Shown here piece after piece: positions 6,664 to 30,147 of a DNA stretch of 64,000 bases. Position 1 is the first letter of the stretch; each line of letters starts with the position of its first letter. The notes beneath the pieces are model-generated. The model was not told the origin of the DNA. It saw only the letters and a list, made by a program, of their open reading frames with translations, and searched no databases. Source of the stretch: Actinomycetes bacterium (lineage in GTDB: Bacteria > Actinomycetota > Thermoleophilia > Gaiellales > F1-60-MAGs149); the NCBI GenBank assembly GCA_025360225.1, contig JANYCN010000042.1:1-64000 (forward strand), in the 5' to 3' direction. Made by a program: the position numbers and the translations under genes.

Positions 6664-9173
6664 GCGAGGAGGAGGCGGCCGAGGCGGAGGGCGACCTCGA
6701 CCGGGCGGTCGAGCGTCGCTCCTGGGCTGGCGCAACGGTCGACGTCTCAGAGGCCATGCTCGAGCGAGCGCTGTCGTACGGCATGTACGTGAACAAGGGC
6801 CGAGCGCTGCCCGACGTCCGCGACGGGCTGAAGCCCGTCCAGCGGCGCATCGTCTACTCGATGAACGAGATCGGCGCTCGTGCGGGGCGCCCGTACGTCA
6901 AGTCGGCGACCGTGATCGGACAGGTGATCGGTCACTACCACCCGCACGGCGACGTCGCCGTTTACGACGCGATGGTGCGCCTCGCCCAGGACTTCAACCA
7001 GAACGTCCCGCTCGTCGACGGCCAGGGCAACTGGGGCTCCGTCGGGCCGAAGGAGCACTCCGACCCTGCCGCCGCGTACCGGTACACCGAGGCGCGACTG
7101 ACCCAGGCGGCGTCGGACTGGCTCGCGGACATGCGGCCCGAGATCGTCGAGTACCGCCCTAACTTCACCGAGCGCCGGCAGGAGCCGTTCGTCCTTCCCG
7201 TCTCGTTCCCGAACCTGCTCGTCAACGGGTCGAAGGGGATCGGGTGGTCGATGGCGTGTGAGGTGCCGCCGCACAACCTCGCCGAGGCGTGTGCAGCAGC
7301 CGTCATCCTGGCGCGCAACCCCGAAGCGACGCTCGCTGAGCTGCTCGCGGTCCTGCCCGGCCCGGACTTTCCGACCGGTGGGATCGTCGTCGACCCGGAC
7401 GGGCTCGCCGCCGCCTACGAGCGCGGCAGCGGCACGATCCGGCTGCAGGCGAAGCACCACATCGAGCAGCTGCCCGGCAACCTGCAGGCCGTCGTCGTGA
7501 CGGAGCTGCCGTACGGGGTGTCTCCCGACCAGGTGGTCACCGAGGTGGTTCGCGCCGCGCGCGCGGAGAAGATCACCGACGTCACGGAGATGCCGAAGAA
7601 CCTGTCTGATCGCAACGGGATCCGCGTGCAGGTGCGGTGTAAGCGCGGCGGCAACATCGCCAAGCTCGTTGCCGACCTGGTGCGCCACACGAGCCTCCGC
7701 GTGACGATCGGGATCAACATCACGGTCCTCGTCGACGGCGTCCCGCGCCAGATCGGGCTACGCGAAGCGCTCGATCGGTTCGTCTCGTTCCGCTTCGAGG
7801 TCGTGACCCGTCGGCTCGAGCACGAGCGACGCGAGCTGCTTGCCGACCTTCACCGGCTCGTGGCGCTGCTTTCGGCGCTCGCGAACGTCGAGGACGTGAT
7901 CCGCATCGTGCGCGAGTCCGACGACGACGCCGACGCGCGGGAGCGGCTGAAGGCGGCGCTCACGGTCGTGCTCCATGGAGCGACGGTTCCCGCGCCGATC
8001 GACGACGACCAGGCGCAGGTGATCCTCGACATGCCGATCAAGCGGCTCGCGCGGCTGAACCGGCTACGCCTCGAGGAGGAACGAGCAGCGAAGGGCGCGC
8101 GCGTCGACGAGATCACGCGGACGCTCGACTCCTACGAGGCGCTCCGGGACATCGTCGTGGACGAGCTCGAACGGACAGCGCGCACCCTCGGCGTGGCGAG
8201 GCGGACGATCCTCGCGGGTGAGACGCCAGGCGCCAGCGCGCCGGCGGGTCGTGTTCGCGACCTGCCGGTGATCACGGCGCCGCGCACCGACGTGTGGCTG
8301 TTCGCGACCGCTGCCGGCGCCTGCGCGGCACGGCCTGTCGACGGTCGACTGACCCGCGTGCCGCTCACGCTCGCCGCCGGCGACGTGGTACGAGCGGCGG
8401 TGCGCACCGACACCGACAGCGAGCTGAACGCCTTCACCAGCGACGGGCTGGTTTTCCGTCTGCGCGTTGCTGAGGTGCCGATCGAGAGCCGCCTCACTCG
8501 CGGGACGCGCGCCGTCGCCCTGGCCCGTGGCGCCTCGGTAGCCGGGCTCGTCCCGGTCGCGCCGGAAGGAGGCTTCGTGCTGATCGTGACGGAGCGGGGC
8601 GAGATCAAACGCGCCGACGCCTCCGTATTCGCAGCGTCGCACCAGGGAGGCTCACCAGCCCTGGACGTCCCAGACGGCGACAAGGTCGTCGCCGTCGTCG
8701 CGCACGGCGAGCCCGACGAGATCCTGCTGCACTCCGCCCACGGTAGGACCCTCCGGGTCGAGGCGAGCAAGCTTCGGCCGGTGAAGAGCGCCGCTGCGGG
8801 CGGCGTTGCCGGAATGCGACTCGAGCCGGGAGATCGCGTCGTCGCGGCGGGAGTCGCCGCCGGCAACGCGGTGGTGGTGGCGCACGAGCTCGGACACGTG
8901 AAGGTGGTCGCGCTCGCCGAGTACCCGGTCAAGGGACGGGGAACCGGTGGCGTCCAGTCGGCAACGACGAGCGCTCCACGCCGCGCTCCCGCAGGCCCGG
9001 TCGCCGCGGCGACGACGCTCTCGCCGGGCGCAAGCGCGCTCGCGATCTCCGCCGCTGGCACGATCTCTCGGGTACAGGGCGAGGTGGCGACGCCCGTCGG
9101 GCGAGCGGCCGTATCACGTCCCTTCGTCGCTCTCGCGGTCGGCGACGAGGTCGTGCTCGTCGTCGAAGAATGA
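6660..9173 (+). CDS. parC: Type IIA topoisomerase cleavage subunit (ParC-like)
   Basis: The ATG at 6660 overlaps the parE stop as ATGA, so the two are probably translationally coupled. The 838-residue product has the winged-helix/tower breakage-reunion domain, with [13 protein letters not shown], the GHYHPHGD motif and the active-site tyrosine Y142 in [13 protein letters not shown]-terminal beta-pinwheel follows (from about residue 535). Instead of the canonical GyrA box Q(R/K)RGGKG it has [13 protein letters not shown], which resembles the KGRATGGV motif of Streptomyces ParC and argues against wrapping-type gyrase. It should act with ParE in decatenation and relaxation. The in-frame ATG at 6621 lies inside parE and is disfavoured. 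Confidence 0.88.
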
Positions 9174-9178
9174 CTGAA

Positions 9179-9248
9179 TAATGACAAATATATGACAGGT
9201 CTGTCAGATGTTTGGAAATCTGACAGACCTGTCATATTCTCGTCATTA
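9179..9248. promoter_or_regulatory. Nested palindromic operator-like region upstream of the cupredoxin gene
   Basis: Two copies of TGACAG-NN-CTGTCA occur, at 9193-9206 (centre GT) and 9221-9234 (centre AC). They form a perfect 20-bp inverted repeat, ATATGACAGGTCTGTCAGAT at 9190-9209 against 9218-9237, with an 8-base spacer. A further 7-bp outer dyad (TAATGAC at 9179-9185, GTCATTA at 9242-9248) encloses it. The same core palindrome occurs at 27940-27953. No T-run follows the stem, so a plain terminator for parC is less likely than a tandem operator, though the structure could also form a strong hairpin in RNA. Confidence 0.6.
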
Positions 9249-24227: not shown

Positions 24228-24644
24228 ATGGCACGCAAACGAACGACCATGCGATCGACCCGGATGCGTTGGTATACCGCGTCAGTTGCCCTCGCGACCG
24301 GCGGCGCCGTTGCCGTCGCGATCGACGTCAGCGCGGCAGCCGAGACCGCTGCGCGTTCCCACGCTGCCGCGACCGCGAACGCCGCCTGGTCGAAGGCCGA
24401 GCTGAAGCGCATCGTGTCGCTCGAGAAGGCGACGGACGACCAGCTCGCGCAGTACAGGAAGCTCGTAACGATCGCAAACGCGACGCAGACGAAGATGCTC
24501 GCCGACCTTCACGTCGCCCGCAAGGCAGCGGAGACCGCGCAGAACGTCAAGCTCGCGAGCATCACCTACCGCGTCAACACCGGCTGGTCCGGCCCGGCAG
24601 TGATCGCCGGCGGCGGCAGCGGACCCTCGTCGGGAACGAGCTGA
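24228..24644 (+). CDS. Redox-cluster protein A1: membrane-anchored coiled coil with SGTS tail
   Basis: The 138-residue product has a basic N terminus (MARKRTTMRSTRMRW), one transmembrane helix (about 15-33), a helical region (about 40-112) likely to be a coiled coil, and a flexible Gly-rich end finishing PSSGTS. It is clearly paralogous to the product at 28042: both share AID after the membrane helix, a (T/S)(R/K)MLADL segment, a NVKLA segment and an SSGTS C terminus. The positive-inside rule puts the C-terminal part outside the membrane. No known family is recognised. SGTS resembles the (S/T)GA(T/S) acceptor motif of ApbE, encoded at the end of the cluster. An ATG at 24249 is an alternative start. 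Confidence 0.75.
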   Translation: MARKRTTMRSTRMRWYTASVALATGGAVAVAIDVSAAAETAARSHAAATANAAWSKAELKRIVSLEKATDDQLAQYRKLVTIANATQTKMLADLHVARKAAETAQNVKLASITYRVNTGWSGPAVIAGGGSGPSSGTS

Positions 24645-24656
24645 GGGCAGACGAAG

Positions 24657-25502
24657 ATGACGGCTCTCGGAGGCAAGATCGCGATGGTTGGCTGCGCCAT
24701 CACCTGTGGCGTCGGCGTGGCGGGGACGGCGTTCGCGCTGTCGCAGACCCGCGCGCCCGGCGCGAGCGGGGCCTTGGCGCGCGCCGCTTCAAGGCCGGCC
24801 TCCGGAGCAACGTCGGTCGTCACCGGGCTCGCGGCGTTCCAGCCAGCAGCCCTCCCTGCCCCGCTCCACCTCGACCCGCTCGTCGTCCACCCCCACCAGG
24901 TCATCGTCCGCGGCAGCACGTTCGCGCCGGGCGGCGGAACGGGGTCGGGCTCCGATAACCCGTGGGCGGGCGGCGCGTGGTCTCCAAGCGGCTCGGGCGG
25001 CGGGTCGGGGAGTGGGGGCACCCCCACCCCGCCGCCCCCGCCACCTCCAGTCGGCACGACCCATACGGGCACGACCGGCGGCGGCACGACCGTCCCGAGC
25101 GCCACGACCTCGACCGGCACCACGTCCACGCCATCGCCGACGAGTGGCAGCACCTCGACGGGGTCAACGAGCTCGGGCGGCGGATCCACCACCACGACCT
25201 CGCCGACGGTCGTCGCCGTCGCCCTGCCACGGAACACCGCGCCGCCGACGATCACCGGCGACAACGTCTTCGGCTCGCTCCTCACGGCGCATCCGGGCAC
25301 CTGGAGCGGCAACCCAACGACCCTCCTGTACACCTGGCTGCGCTGCTCGACCCCGACGGCGTGCGTGACGCACGCGACAGGCCCGACGTACCGCACCGTC
25401 CAGGCCGATCTGAGGTTCATGTTCATCGTCGTCGTCACGGCAACGAACGCCGGCGGGTCGCGCAGCGCCCGAAGCAACGAGAGCGACACGGTGCAGCGCT
25501 GA
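24657..25502 (+). CDS. Redox-cluster protein B1: secreted/anchored Pro-Thr-rich protein with Ig-like domain
   Basis: The 281-residue protein starts with a hydrophobic signal or anchor (about 6-27), then a conserved block VTGLAAFQPAALP...LDPLVVHPHQVIV shared with the B2 protein at 28493. A Gly/Ser and polyproline segment, a Thr/Ser-rich linker (about 125-190), and a C-terminal Ig-like domain follow (about 192-281: APPTITGDNVFGSLLTAHPG, then a YTWLRC strand). The Ig-like unit is of the PPTITG type common in actinobacterial surface proteins and is absent from B2. It is probably extracytoplasmic, possibly cell-wall spanning. Its stop overlaps the C1 start (TGATG). No function can be assigned. Confidence 0.75.
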   Translation: MTALGGKIAMVGCAITCGVGVAGTAFALSQTRAPGASGALARAASRPASGATSVVTGLAAFQPAALPAPLHLDPLVVHPHQVIVRGSTFAPGGGTGSGSDNPWAGGAWSPSGSGGGSGSGGTPTPPPPPPPVGTTHTGTTGGGTTVPSATTSTGTTSTPSPTSGSTSTGSTSSGGGSTTTTSPTVVAVALPRNTAPPTITGDNVFGSLLTAHPGTWSGNPTTLLYTWLRCSTPTACVTHATGPTYRTVQADLRFMFIVVVTATNAGGSRSARSNESDTVQR

Positions 25503-25846
25503 TGCGGCGAACCTGGCTTCTCCTCTACACCGGCGGGATGCTCGTCGCCCTCGTGATCGCGCTCACCTTCGCGGTGCGCGGCTACCAGCGAGCGCAGCAC
25601 GAGGCGCACTGGAACGACCGCGCGCGGTCTGCGGCGAACGCCGCTGCAGCGATCGCACGGCGCGAGCAGTCCGCTACCGCGCGCTACGCCGCTGCGAACG
25701 CCGAGTACGCGGCGCTGGCGGCCAAGGTGAACGTGGCGACGAAGGCTCTCGCCGACGAGATCGCGCGCACGAAGACGACGAAGCGGAAAGTTGTCACCGG
25801 CTCCACTATCGTGAGCTACGTGGCAGTTCCGACGAAGGCTGGGTGA
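25502..25846 (+). CDS. Redox-cluster protein C1: membrane-anchored coiled coil with KRKVVTGST motif
   Basis: The 114-residue protein has one N-terminal membrane helix (about 4-24) and a long Ala-rich helical region (about 35-95). It ends with KRKVVTGSTIVSY plus a short tail. It is paralogous to C2 at 28921, which ends KRKVVTGAPIVSY. The TGST tetrapeptide fits the ApbE acceptor pattern (S/T)-G-(A/S)-(T/S), although the Asp usual three residues before it is missing. It starts at the TGATG overlap with B1 and stops just before the haem-protein gene, so it is part of one operon with both. Confidence 0.75.
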   Translation: MRRTWLLLYTGGMLVALVIALTFAVRGYQRAQHEAHWNDRARSAANAAAAIARREQSATARYAAANAEYAALAAKVNVATKALADEIARTKTTKRKVVTGSTIVSYVAVPTKAG

Positions 25847-25849
25847 CCC

Positions 25850-26422
25850 TTGTTCGCATCGATGATCCTGTGGGACGTGACGCGCTCGAGCGCGTTCATC
25901 GCGTTCGCTTGCTACACGGTGTCCGTCGCGTGGGGAATCTCCCTCACGGCGCGGTCGTTCCGGCCGCCGGTGGCACCGCAGTTCGACTACCACCGGTTCG
26001 TTGCAATGCTCGGACTGTTCGCGATGCTGACGCACGTCGGCACGACGTACTTCGACGCGTTCGCGCACATCCGCCTGAAGAACCTCGTCGGCGTCGGCGC
26101 CGACTGGAAGATCCTGCTCGGCGTGATCGCCATGTGGGTCGCCCTTGCCCTGCCCCTCAGCTTCCACCTGAAGCAGCGGAAGATCCTCGTCAACCAGAAG
26201 TTCTGGCGCAACTTCCACTACCTCGGCTACAGCGTCTGGGCGCTCGCGCTCGTGCACGGCATGTGGCAGGGCTCGGACACAGCGTCGAAGTGGGCGATCG
26301 GCGCGTACGGTGCGAGCGCGATGGCGATCGGCGGCGTCGCCTGGTGGCGGTGGTTCGAGGCGCCGCTGAAGAAGCCCGCGAAGCGATCGCCGGCAAAGCC
26401 GCAGCCGAGCGCGGAGGCGTGA
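25850..26422 (+). CDS. Ferric-reductase-like transmembrane haem protein
   Basis: The 190-residue protein has about five or six membrane spans and the two-haem b signature of the ferric reductase/NADPH oxidase superfamily. H48 and H62 are 14 residues apart on one helix (DYHRF, LTHVG), and H123 and H136 are 13 apart on another (NFHYLG, LVHGMW), matching the HX13H and HX12H spacing of that superfamily. It has no FAD or NAD domain of its own, so electrons should come from a partner such as the reductase or ferredoxin encoded next, and pass across the membrane. The start may be TTG at 25850 (AGG upstream) or ATG at 25862. Confidence 0.85.
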   Translation: MFASMILWDVTRSSAFIAFACYTVSVAWGISLTARSFRPPVAPQFDYHRFVAMLGLFAMLTHVGTTYFDAFAHIRLKNLVGVGADWKILLGVIAMWVALALPLSFHLKQRKILVNQKFWRNFHYLGYSVWALALVHGMWQGSDTASKWAIGAYGASAMAIGGVAWWRWFEAPLKKPAKRSPAKPQPSAEA

Positions 26423-26489
26423 GGAACGCCTCATCGCGACGTGCAACCATCGACCCGTGGCCGTCCCCCGACTCACAGGTGATCTACCA

Positions 26490-27614
26490 ATGACTGAACG
26501 AGTGATCGTCGTCGGCAACGGGGTTGCCGGCCACTCCTGCGCCAGCCGGCTCGCCGAGCTCGGCACCAAGGTAACGATGATCGGCCCCGGCCTCCCGCAC
26601 GACCGTCCGCCGTTGTCGAAGCGCGCGCTCGCGACCGGGCGGCTGCCGATGCTGTCCGACGCCGAACGGCTTATCGCGAAGGGCGTTGACCACCTCGACG
26701 GCACCGTGACGGACGTCGACCTTCCGAACCGCCGCCTTACGGTCGCGCAGACCGGTGGTGGTGAGCCGCTCGTCATCGATGCCCCGCGACTGGTCTGGGC
26801 GACCGGGCTTCGCTACCCGAAGCCGCCGGTGCCCGGCCTCGACCACCTCGGACACGAGAACGCGACCGGCGACGGGATGCTTGCCCTGCACCAGCAGATC
26901 CGTGAGCCGGGCAAGCGCGTCGTCGTGATCGGTGCCGGCCTGATCGGCACCGAGACGGCCGCCACGCTTGGACAGAACCACGCCGTCACGCTGCTCGACA
27001 TGGTCGACCGGCCACTCGCGCGCTTCCTCACACCCGTCACCGACGGTGCCCTGAAGATCCTCAACGAGCTCGGCGTACCGTTCCACGGTGAGTGCCGTAT
27101 CGACGGCGTTGAGCGCGATGGCGACCAGCTCGTCGTGCAGACCTCGACGCACGGGTCGATTCCCTGCGACGTCGTCGTGAGCGCTGCCGGGTTCCGCAGC
27201 AGCCTGCCGCCCGAGCTCGTCGAAGATCCGCGTGCGCTGGCGATGCCGTGCGACTCGACGCTGCGCGTCGAAGGCCACGAGAACCTCTGGGCCGCAGGCG
27301 ACTGCCTGACGTTCCCTCACCCGCGCTGGGGTCGGATCGGCATCCCCCACTGGGACCACGCCCACTGGAGCGGCCGGCACGTTGCCGAGTCGATCCACGG
27401 CTCGACCCTTGCGTACGTGCGCGACCCGTACTTCTTCAGCGACATCGCCCACCTCCGCATCCAGCAGGTCGGCTTCGCGCCAGCTGCCACGTCGTGGGGC
27501 GAGGAGTCCGGCCTGCACGTCGGCCGTGACGCGGACGGCGCCGTGGCGTGCGTCCTGTTCATGAACGCCCCCGCGCGCCTCAAGGAGGCGCGTGAGCTGC
27601 TCGCCGCCGCGTGA
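26490..27614 (+). CDS. FAD-dependent NAD(P)H:ferredoxin reductase-like oxidoreductase
   Basis: The 374-residue flavoprotein has a FAD dinucleotide fold at the N terminus (VVGNGVAGHSCASRL), a second Rossmann motif for NAD(P)H (VVIGAGLIGTETAATLG, about 145-165), and a late FAD-binding LWAAGDCL segment. It resembles the ferredoxin reductases of oxygenase and P450 systems (BphA4-like). It lies 41 bases upstream of the ferredoxin gene, so it should reduce that ferredoxin with NAD(P)H in the cytoplasm. The ATG at 26490 has AGGTGA seven bases upstream; the GTG at 26457 is a weaker alternative. Confidence 0.86.
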   Translation: MTERVIVVGNGVAGHSCASRLAELGTKVTMIGPGLPHDRPPLSKRALATGRLPMLSDAERLIAKGVDHLDGTVTDVDLPNRRLTVAQTGGGEPLVIDAPRLVWATGLRYPKPPVPGLDHLGHENATGDGMLALHQQIREPGKRVVVIGAGLIGTETAATLGQNHAVTLLDMVDRPLARFLTPVTDGALKILNELGVPFHGECRIDGVERDGDQLVVQTSTHGSIPCDVVVSAAGFRSSLPPELVEDPRALAMPCDSTLRVEGHENLWAAGDCLTFPHPRWGRIGIPHWDHAHWSGRHVAESIHGSTLAYVRDPYFFSDIAHLRIQQVGFAPAATSWGEESGLHVGRDADGAVACVLFMNAPARLKEARELLAAA

Positions 27615-27659
27615 TCACCACCCGGCTCGTCATCAACGCCCCCGAGAGGAGCACCACCC

Positions 27660-27848
27660 ATGAGCGTACGTCTGATCGTTGACGCCGATGGCTGCATCGG
27701 ATCTGGCGAGTGCGTCGCCGAGGACCCACAGGCAATCGAGATCGACGACAGCGGCTGCGCCCGCGTGCTGATCGGCGCGATGGATGAGGCCCGCGCCCAG
27801 CACCTGTGCGACGTCTGTCCCGTCGGCGCGCTCACCATCGAGCACTGA
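27660..27848 (+). CDS. [3Fe-4S]-type ferredoxin
   Basis: The 62-residue ferredoxin has cysteines C12 and C18 (CIGSGEC) and C50/C53 in CDVCPVGAL. The residue that would be the second cluster cysteine of a [4Fe-4S] protein is S15, which points to a [3Fe-4S] cluster as in actinobacterial P450-type ferredoxins. The extra C50 could allow cluster interchange. Upstream GAGAGGAGC is a good ribosome-binding site. Acting with the reductase just upstream, it probably delivers electrons to the membrane haem protein or another acceptor of this cluster. Confidence 0.9.
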   Translation: MSVRLIVDADGCIGSGECVAEDPQAIEIDDSGCARVLIGAMDEARAQHLCDVCPVGALTIEH

Positions 27849-27914
27849 ACGGCATCGTAACGAGAAGAGAACCACTCCCCCGCCTGGGGGAGACGCAAAG
27901 GACGCTATCATGCC

Positions 27915-27970
27915 CGATCGAGGATTCTGCGCAATTTATGACAGATCTGTCATAAAAAGCCCCTCGATCG
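27915..27970. promoter_or_regulatory. 22-bp perfect palindrome inside a second dyad, upstream of the second triad
   Basis: TTTATGACAGA (27935-27945) is followed directly by its exact reverse complement (27946-27956), giving a 22-bp perfect palindrome with core TGACAGATCTGTCA. Outside it, CGATCGAGG at 27915-27923 pairs with CCTCGATCG at 27962-27970. The core matches both palindromes upstream of the cupredoxin gene at 9.2 kb. It lies in the 193-base gap between the ferredoxin and A2 genes, the place expected for an operator/promoter of the second triad. A role as a hairpin attenuator or terminator after the ferredoxin gene is possible, since AAAAAG, not a T-run, follows on the plus strand. Confidence 0.6.
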
Positions 27971-28041
27971 AGGCACGAAGAGCCCGATGCGATTTGACAT
28001 GGTTGGGAAGACACCCGACCGATCGTGGGGGGACGAACGGA

Positions 28042-28488
28042 ATGCACCTAGGAAGACGAGGAGAGAGGACGCCAAACGCCGCAGCCGCGGTGAAACGGCG
28101 CAAACGCGCACAACGCGTGTACACGTCCGCGCTCGCGGCGCTCTCGACCTGCTCGATCGCGTACGCGATCGACATGAACGCACAGGCCGACAAGGGCGAC
28201 GCGGCAGCGACGCGAGCAGCGCAGCTGAAGAAGTACGCCTCCGTGCTTGACCAGCACATCGCGGCGACCGACAAGCAGTACAGCGCCCTCATGCGCCAGT
28301 ACGGCGGCATCGTCGCCTCCGCGAAGACGCAGCAAACCCGGATGCTCGCCGACCTCACGAAGGCGCGCGACGACGTCCAGAAGGCGCGAAACGTGAAGCT
28401 GGCGCCCATCCAGTACGCCGTCCAACGCGTCTCCGGCGGCGGATCGGTATCCGCAGCATCGGGCGGCGCCTCGAGCGGGACGAGCTGA
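28042..28488 (+). CDS. Redox-cluster protein A2: membrane-anchored coiled coil with SGTS tail
   Basis: The 148-residue paralogue of A1 has a basic N terminus (KRRKRAQR), one membrane helix (about 26-43), AIDMNAQAD, a helical region with TRMLADLTKARDDVQKARNVKLA, and a Gly/Ser-rich linker ending ASSGTS. The ATG at 28042 follows a G-run that could serve as a ribosome-binding site. The gene is the first after the palindrome at 27935 and is followed 4 bases later by B2. Conservation of the last five residues (SSGTS) against the otherwise divergent linkers of A1 and A2 suggests the tail is functional. Confidence 0.75.
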   Translation: MHLGRRGERTPNAAAAVKRRKRAQRVYTSALAALSTCSIAYAIDMNAQADKGDAAATRAAQLKKYASVLDQHIAATDKQYSALMRQYGGIVASAKTQQTRMLADLTKARDDVQKARNVKLAPIQYAVQRVSGGGSVSAASGGASSGTS

Positions 28489-28492
28489 ACCG

Positions 28493-28924
28493 ATGAAAGC
28501 AACGACCATCCGTTCGCGGCTCGCAGCGCTGACCTGTGCCGCTACCGCCGGCGCGGCCGTCATGGGCGGCGCGTTCGCCGTCGCCGCGACGCGCGGCGCT
28601 GCGACCGGCGAGGCGGCGATCGCCGCGGCGTCCGACGCCAAGAAGTCGACGCCCGTTCCCGTCGCGCACCTCACCGGCCTTGCTGGCTTCGTGCCGGCGA
28701 AGATCCCGCCCAAGCTCGTCCTGAAGCCGCTCGTCATCCACCCGCGTCAGATCGTGGTCGTGACGAAGCGAACGGTCGTCAGCCAGCGGACGACGGGTGG
28801 GAAGACGACGAAGAAGGACCCGTGGGGCAGCGGCTCGGACTGGAGCGCGACCGGCTCGTCGAGCAACGGCAACAACGACGCGCCGCCGCCGCCACCACCG
28901 CCTCCGGGGACGCCGGCGCCATGA
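28493..28924 (+). CDS. Redox-cluster protein B2: anchored proline-rich protein
   Basis: The 143-residue paralogue of B1 has an N-terminal hydrophobic signal or anchor (about 9-33), the conserved block HLTGLAGFVPAKIPPKLVLK plus PLVIHPRQIVVV, and a Trp/Ser/Gly segment (DPWGSGSDWSATGSS). It ends in a run of eight prolines and GTPAP. It lacks the Thr-rich linker and Ig-like domain of B1. It overlaps the C2 start (ATGA at 28921). The conserved block, which has a regular alternation of hydrophobic residues, is the only feature common to both B proteins besides the N-terminal anchor and the proline run. Function unknown. Confidence 0.73.
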   Translation: MKATTIRSRLAALTCAATAGAAVMGGAFAVAATRGAATGEAAIAAASDAKKSTPVPVAHLTGLAGFVPAKIPPKLVLKPLVIHPRQIVVVTKRTVVSQRTTGGKTTKKDPWGSGSDWSATGSSSNGNNDAPPPPPPPPGTPAP

Positions 28925-29247
28925 AGCTTGGCTACCTGAGCGCCTACAACGCGGTCATCGCCGTCGCGTGTGCCGCGTCGATCTTCTACGCGGTAGAGGC
29001 CCACAACCGCGCCAACGCGCGCGACCGCTACACGCCCGTGGCAACGCACCTGACGAAGGTGACCGACGCGAAGGCGGCGCTCGACCAGGCGGCCGTCGCG
29101 AAGGTGAACGCGCTCTCGAGCGCCCTCCAGGACCTGACAAAGAAGGTCGCAGCCGAGCAGACGACCCTTGCTTCGGAGATCGCGAAGACGCGTACCATGA
29201 AGCGCAAGGTGGTGACCGGCGCGCCAATCGTGAGCTACGCGGGGTAG
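28921..29247 (+). CDS. Redox-cluster protein C2: membrane-anchored coiled coil with KRKVVTGAP motif
   Basis: The 108-residue paralogue of C1 has a membrane helix at about 4-25 and a helical region ending TTLASEIAKTRTMKRKVVTG, then APIVSYAG at the C terminus. The ASEIAKT-RT-KRKVVTG block aligns without gaps with ADEIARTKTTKRKVVTG of C1. In the position corresponding to the acceptor Thr of C1 (TGST) it has Pro (TGAP), so if C1 is flavinylated there, C2 is not at the same residue. The ApbE gene starts 6 bases after its stop, in the same operon. Confidence 0.74.
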   Translation: MKLGYLSAYNAVIAVACAASIFYAVEAHNRANARDRYTPVATHLTKVTDAKAALDQAAVAKVNALSSALQDLTKKVAAEQTTLASEIAKTRTMKRKVVTGAPIVSYAG

Positions 29248-29253
29248 CCGCGC

Positions 29254-30147
29254 GTGGCGGAACGTCCAGCATGGGAGTGGAAGGCCATGGGAACGACGTG
29301 GCACATCTTCCACTCGGGCCTGCTCACCCAGGCGATCGCAGACCAGATGGCGTTGCTCGTCGAAGAGGACGAGCAACGCTGGTCGCGCTTCCGCGAGTCG
29401 AGCGAGCTGATGAAGCTCAACCGCTGTGCAGGCATCCCTGTCGAGGCCAGCCCGGAGACGCTCGGTCTGCTCGTCGAGTGCGACCGCTGGACGCGGGAGA
29501 CCGACGGCGTCTTCAACCCGCTGGTCGGAATGGCGCTCCGTGACTGGGGGTACGAGGTGTCGAAGTTCGATCGACCACCCGGTCGCGACACCAGCCCGAC
29601 GCCTCGCCCGGCGGTGCGTGAGCCGCTCGTCTTCGACCGCCGCCGTGGCATCGTGCTGGTCCCCGAGGGTGCCCAGCTCGATCTTGGCGGCATCGCGAAG
29701 ACCTGGAGCGTCACGCGCGTCGTCGCGGCACTGCTGCCCTTGACCGACGACCCGGTGCTGCTCGTTGACGCGGGCGGGGACATGGTCGCCGCCCGCGGCG
29801 ACCACGAGGTCGCGATCGAAGGACGCGAAGGGCCGGACGCACCGCCGCTAGCGACCGTCGTGCTCCGCGAGTCGCAGGGCGTCGCGACGTCCGGCTGGAG
29901 CCGGCGCTCATGGCGCAACGCCGATGGCGGCGAGGGGATGCACATCATCGACCCGGCGACCGGCGCACCCGCCGGACGCGTGCAGGCGACGGTGATCGCG
30001 GACGAGCCGTTGCGCGCCGAGGTGACAGCGAAGACGCTCGTGATCCGGCCCGACCTGATCGACGCGGTCGATGTTGCCGCCCTCGTCGCGACGGGCGACG
30101 GCGTGCGCACGTCGACGCGCTGGGCGTCGGTCGCGACCGTCTCCTGA
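29254..30147 (+). CDS. apbE: FAD:protein FMN transferase (ApbE family)
   Basis: The 297-residue enzyme should attach FMN from FAD to Thr or Ser of an acceptor protein. Family features are visible in order: KAMGTTWHI near the N terminus, RFRESSELMKLNR, VFNPLVGMALRDWGY, LDLGGIAKTWSV, LLVDAGGDMVA, and GEGMHIIDPATG with the His/Asp region of the active site. No signal peptide or lipobox is present, unlike most ApbE proteins, so it appears cytoplasmic. It closes the redox cluster, directly after C2. No FMN_bind-domain acceptor is encoded in the window, so the A and C proteins are the natural suspects. It starts with GTG. Confidence 0.9.
   Translation: MAERPAWEWKAMGTTWHIFHSGLLTQAIADQMALLVEEDEQRWSRFRESSELMKLNRCAGIPVEASPETLGLLVECDRWTRETDGVFNPLVGMALRDWGYEVSKFDRPPGRDTSPTPRPAVREPLVFDRRRGIVLVPEGAQLDLGGIAKTWSVTRVVAALLPLTDDPVLLVDAGGDMVAARGDHEVAIEGREGPDAPPLATVVLRESQGVATSGWSRRSWRNADGGEGMHIIDPATGAPAGRVQATVIADEPLRAEVTAKTLVIRPDLIDAVDVAALVATGDGVRTSTRWASVATVS

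Follow-up and report, generated by a model that had tools for sequence, protein, structure and literature searches.

The known modification site of ApbE, the FAD:protein FMN transferase, is DxxSGA[T/S], of which the last residue is modified; Gly-to-Ala and Ala-to-Val mutants of the site retain about half of the efficiency, and Asp-to-Ala is nearly fully tolerated (PMC12052999). Short C-terminal flavin tags are efficient ApbE substrates, with tags at the protein terminus working best (PMC12052999). Flavodoxin_4 and FMN_red are listed among the substrates, and the FMN_red site lies on an unstructured C-terminal extension (PMC10979944), which is the nearest precedent for the arrangement described here. 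We analysed a stretch of 64,000 nucleotides (the window) on contig C45 (JANYCN010000042.1) of the 3.24-Mb assembly of an Actinomycetes bacterium of the order Gaiellales (GCA_025360225.1) and identified a locus of ten genes on the plus strand in the order A1-B1-C1-cytochrome-reductase-ferredoxin-A2-B2-C2-ApbE, with A, B and C being small membrane-anchored proteins (Table 1). We consider it likely that this locus is a flavin-tail electron-export cassette, in which the C-terminal tail of the A proteins would be the ApbE substrate and act as a domain-less flavin arm from the cytochrome to an acceptor outside. The balance of probability also favours a natural class of ApbE substrates that is spread over several phyla and lacks a flavin-binding domain, in which FMN would be attached in the cytosol to the extreme C-terminal Ser/Thr of a tethered tail, which, once exported, would swing between a cytochrome of the ferric-reductase fold and an envelope acceptor.

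A1 and A2 have identical last four residues, SGTS-COOH, and the last Ser is invariant in alignment A4. A1 is homologous to the tail protein of locus L039 (37.9% over 95 aa, E = 1e-7), which is the second anchored protein of a cassette that recurs in relatives, and A2 more weakly to the tail proteins of loci L039 and L034. Compared with DxxSGA[T/S], both tails have Ser/Thr at the acceptor position and three residues before it and keep the Gly, but carry Thr instead of Ala and have no Asp at position -7. We propose A1 and A2 as substrates of the window ApbE, which would attach FMN to their C-terminal Ser; each would be built from a transmembrane (TM) anchor and a stalk, helical or disordered, that ends in a bare modification tail, and neither has an FMN_bind domain. 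The original prediction, an earlier reading of the same DNA from its letters and open reading frames (ORFs), overlooked the conservation of [ST]xx[ST] at the C-terminus of A, which is a clue to the acceptor. The C-protein tails (VTGST in C1, VTGAP in C2) were also considered as flavin sites and set aside, as they are not conserved between the paralogues.

Tails were counted across genomes as small ORFs with an N-terminal TM segment and an exact C-terminal [ST]xx[ST] that ended between -305 and +60 relative to the start of the following gene; gene calls in GC-rich drafts were our own. A tail was located directly upstream of cytochrome-linked ApbE without FMN_bind in 46 of 64 cases in the order, compared with 22 of 690 other genes (P = 8e-42), in 11/23 versus 2/145 in a sample from the phylum that was collected only once the motif had been fixed (P = 1.7e-9) and in 20/40 versus 8/541 in named genomes from several phyla (P = 6e-20), with all three P values overstating independence because the loci are phylogenetically related. 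None of the 15 FMN_bind-linked ApbEs in the order has a tail beside it. Several misses were left uncounted, namely those with 1–5 residues past the motif (TRSSR, TQTSPPPPA, TATSAVARG), an assembly frame break in L047 and an internal motif copy in L079 and L095. In L047 (genome G061, minus strand, approximately 8801–9053), an apparent frameshift breaks the tail gene, and the PPLTTTRTS end lies in another frame. Plasmid records, which were read last, added seven cytochrome-linked loci from five distinct genera, each with a tail; a PepSY/VIT-linked Psychrobacter locus also has one, and neither of two Nqr-linked ApbEs does. The small protein beside ApbE almost always has an ending such as TRTS, TRSS, THVS, TSTS, SGGS, SHAS, SGTS or a similar sequence. 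Groups bearing the motif include Streptomyces, Nocardia, Rhodococcus, Bacillus, Chloroflexi and Psychrobacter, and predicted tail proteins beside ApbE and the cytochrome span at least four phyla. Three Candidate Phyla Radiation metagenome-assembled genomes (L130, L136, L138), in which FMN_bind was not found, encode anchored proteins two genes upstream of ApbE that end in PRTRVS, STRSTKSS and PRTTVS; a further small protein is encoded between these and ApbE.

The tails share the register D(-7)xx[ST](-4)xx[ST](-1) with the known site. Ser/Thr at -1 and -4 is present by selection, while Asp at -7 occurs in nine tails of a non-redundant set of 73, compared with a mean of 0.84 across the other 19 positions (P = 3e-7 as counted); when about six independent lineages are counted, which is fairer because three Bacillus tails are related, P is about 2e-4. 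Bacillus and Neobacillus tails read DTTTGGT-COOH, one actinobacterial tail reads SSGAS and an Arthrobacter tail reads TTTRAS. In Streptomyces, Nocardia and Amycolatopsis, the motif is present twice, as an internal and a terminal copy. One such tail ORF, on a plasmid of Streptomyces sp. NBC_00637 (L254:5640-5984; VTRSTDS and MTRSGGS-COOH), is missing from the gene table of the record. Alternatively, the real ApbE substrate could be something else, and the [ST]xx[ST] tail could serve for docking, processing or targeting, with ApbE, the cytochrome or an envelope protease as its partner, or could be O-glycosylated. Tail linkers are rich in Pro/Thr/Ser/Ala, as is found in glycosylated actinobacterial proteins, and some tails stray strongly from SGAT. 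However, we regard this explanation as unlikely, given that Asp at -7 and the SGAS, TGGT and SGTS versions match the known ApbE site, that the duplicated internal copies disfavour a pure C-terminal signal and that several genomes have one ApbE and none of the substrate classes searched.

FMN_bind was absent from the cluster, in agreement with the original prediction, and from the rest of the window. The locus could still be an ordinary MsrQ-like flavinylation cluster with an overlooked, divergent FMN_bind domain, as its gene content is like that of published MsrQ-like systems (PMC8238504). This we hold to be very improbable: A, B and C had no FMN_bind match down to E = 1, the A2 model (of low confidence) contains only helices ahead of its disordered tail and lacks strands, and DxxSGA[ST] was not found in proteins of less than 420 aa near 94 tail-type ApbEs. 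The genome's only two FMN_bind matches are in one double-domain protein on contig C6, which has a neighbouring ApbE of its own from a distinct clade; the FMN_bind-linked ApbEs of our set form one separate clade with 99% SH-like support. This C6 locus (L038:8856-11917) encodes a canonical ferric reductase, the double FMN_bind protein with two GGASYTS sites and a short ApbE, and appears to be a second, separate flavinylation system in the same genome. Across the order, FMN_bind is absent from 51 of 71 ApbE-bearing genomes and from 43 of the 52 with both cytochrome and ApbE. Outside the order, whole genomes were searched with Pfam PF04205, because our own FMN_bind profile is weak there, and FMN_bind was absent in 20 of 25 named genomes, a sample chosen mostly for tail cassettes. 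Twelve of these were searched further, with NqrB/RnfD in 0/12 and a single ApbE gene in 9/12; the complete chromosome of Neobacillus sp. SuZ13 encodes one ApbE and a DTTTGGT tail gene, with no FMN_bind and no NqrB/RnfD. DUF2271 and NqrB/RnfD were rejected as alternative substrates, as DUF2271 had seven weak matches across the order, none over the cut-off and none in the own genome, and NqrB/RnfD had weak matches in 28 genomes and likewise none in the own genome.

The original prediction had taken the A-B-C triads as the defining unit and as builders of an outside carrier. Its description of two paralogous triads in the same order, flanking cytochrome, reductase and ferredoxin with ApbE last, agrees with the ten ORFs and with composition-adjusted BLASTP in a small set, by which A1/A2 (40% identity over 112 aa, E = 5e-13), B1/B2 (41%, E = 4e-10) and C1/C2 (35% over 106 aa, E = 3e-13) are judged real paralogues, alike beyond chance. 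None of A, B and C matched Pfam or NCBIfam above curated cut-offs, including the C-terminal segment of B1, which is Ig-like by eye and has no match in Pfam. When B2 and C2 were searched across 129 genomes of the order, they matched only themselves and B1/C1, with no homologue detected in the 128 others; B and C therefore cannot be a general carrier, and co-occurrence of the triads is unusable as a test. A-like proteins alone recur in relatives, together with both cytochrome and ApbE, and the unit that recurs is thus A-ApbE-cytochrome. A joint carrier of A, B and C, for which the target of ApbE would be some other protein or an FMN_bind protein encoded at another locus, is consistent with the two triads, with the third A-B-C-cytochrome set that this genome carries (C45:77256-78926, 13 kb past the window) and with the FMN_bind protein on C6. 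It is nevertheless improbable in view of the missing B and C homologues, the separate clade of the ApbE adjoining the C6 protein and the 43 relatives mentioned above. Homologues of A, B and C had also been expected not to occur widely without ApbE or the haem protein, nor a separate FMN_bind acceptor to be the substrate of the cluster's ApbE. The first expectation partly fails within the same genome: the third set and the A-like/cytochrome pairs on contigs C60 and C16 have no ApbE alongside, although ApbE is present elsewhere in the genome. As to the second, the FMN_bind acceptor on C6 does exist, but with its own ApbE.

The window ApbE matched PF02424 with 132.7 bits (cut-off 25.6) and retains DLGGIAK, ATSG and MHIIDP, corresponding to the DxxGxxK, TS and H-x-[IL]-D-P motifs. 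The canonical AD-x-x-[AS]-T motif is not matched and reads AEVTAKT. Of 102 tail-linked ApbEs, 71 have Lys in place of the Thr of ADxxAT, as against none of 16 FMN_bind-linked ones, but this variant (A[ED]xxAK) is not exclusive, as Lys is also found in 25 of 59 ApbEs whose context was not assigned. The catalytic His and Lys motifs are preserved in tail-linked ApbEs, which are without signal peptides and rarely (five of 95) have an N-terminal hydrophobic segment; the window ApbE is cytosolic by sequence. The tail proteins have an N-in/C-out topology in 64 of 73 cases (positive-inside bias), which places the tail outside; in two Alicyclobacillus tail proteins, an apparent peptidoglycan-binding domain lies between anchor and tail, and RefSeq annotates one so. 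Because FAD is available in the cytosol and signal-less ApbEs are paired with an outside tail, we infer that FMN would be attached in the cytosol before export of the unfolded tail.

Cytochrome homologues are present in 54 of the 129 genomes of the order, with five copies in the own genome, and co-occur with ApbE, which was found in 52 of the 54 genomes with and in 19 of the 75 without the cytochrome (P = 2e-17). The match to Ferric_reduct (PF01794) is below the cut-off (12.6 versus 28 bits). The AlphaFold2 model is helical and confident (mean pLDDT 90.5), and its best matches in the PDB are NOX5, STEAP2, pneumococcal NOX (SpNOX) and DUOX (probability 0.99–1.00, E 0.05 or worse, TMq up to 0.61 for NOX5). 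An alignment of 16 homologues shows four invariant His, and the fold is of the NOX/STEAP type; the cytochrome therefore most probably holds two membrane-spanning b-haems, like that of MsrQ-like systems, which agrees with the two-haem, ferric-reductase-type protein of the original prediction. Pfam assigned the reductase to Pyr_redox_2 (152.5 bits) and the ferredoxin to Fer4_15 (35.1 bits). Electrons would pass from NAD(P)H through the FAD reductase, ferredoxin and the two b-haems to the tail flavin outside and on to an acceptor beyond the membrane, which may be a metal ion such as iron or copper. The path from NAD(P)H through reductase, ferredoxin and haems to the outside had been proposed before, and the cytochrome fold, the recurrence of reductase and ferredoxin beside the cytochrome in relatives and the co-occurrence of cytochrome and ApbE support it as a predicted path.

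The recurrent cassette consists of a response regulator, histidine kinase, DD-ended anchored protein, second anchored protein, ApbE and cytochrome, to which a ferredoxin with reductase or a NuoF-like protein is sometimes added. The DD-ended protein, whose C-terminus is acidic and rich in DD, is regularly encoded ahead of the tail protein (in relatives such as L048, L051, L106, L111 and L255), contains PepSY domains in Chloroflexi and is a possible metal-binding partner. Cassettes of Streptomyces, Nocardia and Amycolatopsis (L103, L119, L134) adjoin copper-type P-type ATPase genes, an HMA chaperone and a Met-rich anchored protein, which suggests a copper-linked version, and a CsoR-type repressor is located beside the cassette in Nocardia. 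VIT-family transporters adjoin it in Cnuibacter, Alicyclobacillus and Psychrobacter. Extracytosolic reduction of metals is the most economical guess for the function; the window itself contains nothing pointing to a particular acceptor.

Besides the relatedness of the counted loci, several observations weigh against a flavin-bearing tail. SGTS in the window is a relaxed site, with Thr for Ala and no Asp at -7, and many tails of relatives (TRTS, THVS) lack the Gly preferred in published mutagenesis. The window ApbE follows C2 and not A2, two tail-bearing cytochrome loci of the same genome have no local ApbE, and one triad (the third set on C45) has lost the tail, with [ST]xx[ST] absent from both its A and its C. 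The Thr-to-Lys change could alter or abolish metal binding of ApbE. A signal-less ApbE and an outside tail imply either attachment before export or an ApbE that is exported unseen, and a tail model gives no role to B, C and the doubled set.

Table 1. Features of the ApbE locus in the window (positions are those of the window)
Feature	Position	Strand	Description
A1	24228-24644	+	ORF; N-terminal TM anchor, helical segment, disordered C-terminus ending ...PSSGTS
A1 tail motif S-G-T-S	24630-24641	+	C-terminus; last Ser is the proposed flavin attachment site; register of [S/T]GA[S/T]
B1	24657-25502	+	ORF; TM anchor, low-complexity Pro/Thr/Ser linker, C-terminal Ig-like-looking segment
C1	25502-25846	+	ORF; TM anchor and helical segment; ends KRKVVTGSTIVSYVAVPTKAG
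Cytochrome, ferric-reductase fold	25862 (ATG) or 25850 (TTG) to 26422	+	Four invariant His, fold match
NAD(P)H:ferredoxin reductase, Pyr_redox_2 family	26490 (ATG, likelier) or 26457 (GTG) to 27614	+	Pfam
Small ferredoxin	27660-27848	+	Cx5C...CxxCP pattern; 3Fe-4S type likely
Perfect 22-bp palindrome TTTATGACAGATCTGTCATAAA	27935-27956	+	Upstream of A2; possible operator
A2	28042-28488	+	TM anchor, long helix, disordered tail (residues 119-148, pLDDT<50) ending ...ASSGTS
A2 tail motif S-G-T-S	28474-28485	+	C-terminus of A2
B2	28493-28924	+	ORF; TM anchor and proline-rich disordered region; B1 paralogue
C2	28921-29247	+	ORF; TM anchor and helical segment; ends KRKVVTGAPIVSYAG; C1 paralogue
ApbE, FAD:protein FMN transferase	29254-30147 (alternative start ATG 29287)	+	Pfam; without signal peptide

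Two 16-bp near-copies (half copies) of the palindrome are located elsewhere in the window, at 9192-9207 and 9220-9235, after a gene ending at 9173.

No description of a domain-less tail substrate was found in Pfam, NCBIfam or the literature, with subscription literature mostly outside the search. The published ApbE census admitted loci only if ApbE, FMN_bind, DUF2271 or DUF3570 had a predicted signal (PMC8238504); tail loci would fail this filter because their ApbE is signal-less and the tail domain-less. If the proposal holds, a census filtered by signal peptides would miss a widespread class, the tails would form a new substrate class for protein flavinylation, orphan apbE genes without a recognised acceptor would be accounted for and covalent flavins would work without a folded binding domain. 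Electron export would then be testable in culturable relatives of Bacillus, Arthrobacter, Rhodococcus and Streptomyces, in some of them beside copper or iron transport genes.

Among described systems, the MsrQ-like ones (Meheust et al. 2021, PMC8238504; structures in Huang et al. 2024, PMC10979944) share with the window cassette the six-helix-type, four-His cytochrome with ApbE and NAD(P)H-side donors (NuoF-like or a fused NAD domain); they are also common in Actinobacteria, and VIT-family iron transporters accompany some of them. In contrast to them, the window cassette has a small domain-less tail protein and no FMN_bind acceptor, the ApbE of tail cassettes has no signal peptide and copper-linked tail cassettes exist. 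The ferric-reductase-domain superfamily (NOX, STEAP, MsrQ) shares the fold and the paired His, whereas the window cytochrome is a stand-alone membrane domain that would receive its electrons from a separate ferredoxin. Known ApbE substrates (FMN_bind, NqrB/RnfD, DUF2271, DUF3570, Flavodoxin_4 and FMN_red) carry, like the tail, a Ser/Thr in a [S/T]GA[S/T]-like context, but the tail has no folded flavin-binding domain, is membrane-tethered and disordered, and has its putative site, relaxed to [ST]xx[ST], at the last residue or last few residues. In the engineered flavin-tag (seven residues, at protein termini; PMC12052999), a short terminal peptide likewise suffices, whereas the tail arrangement appears to be natural and widespread.

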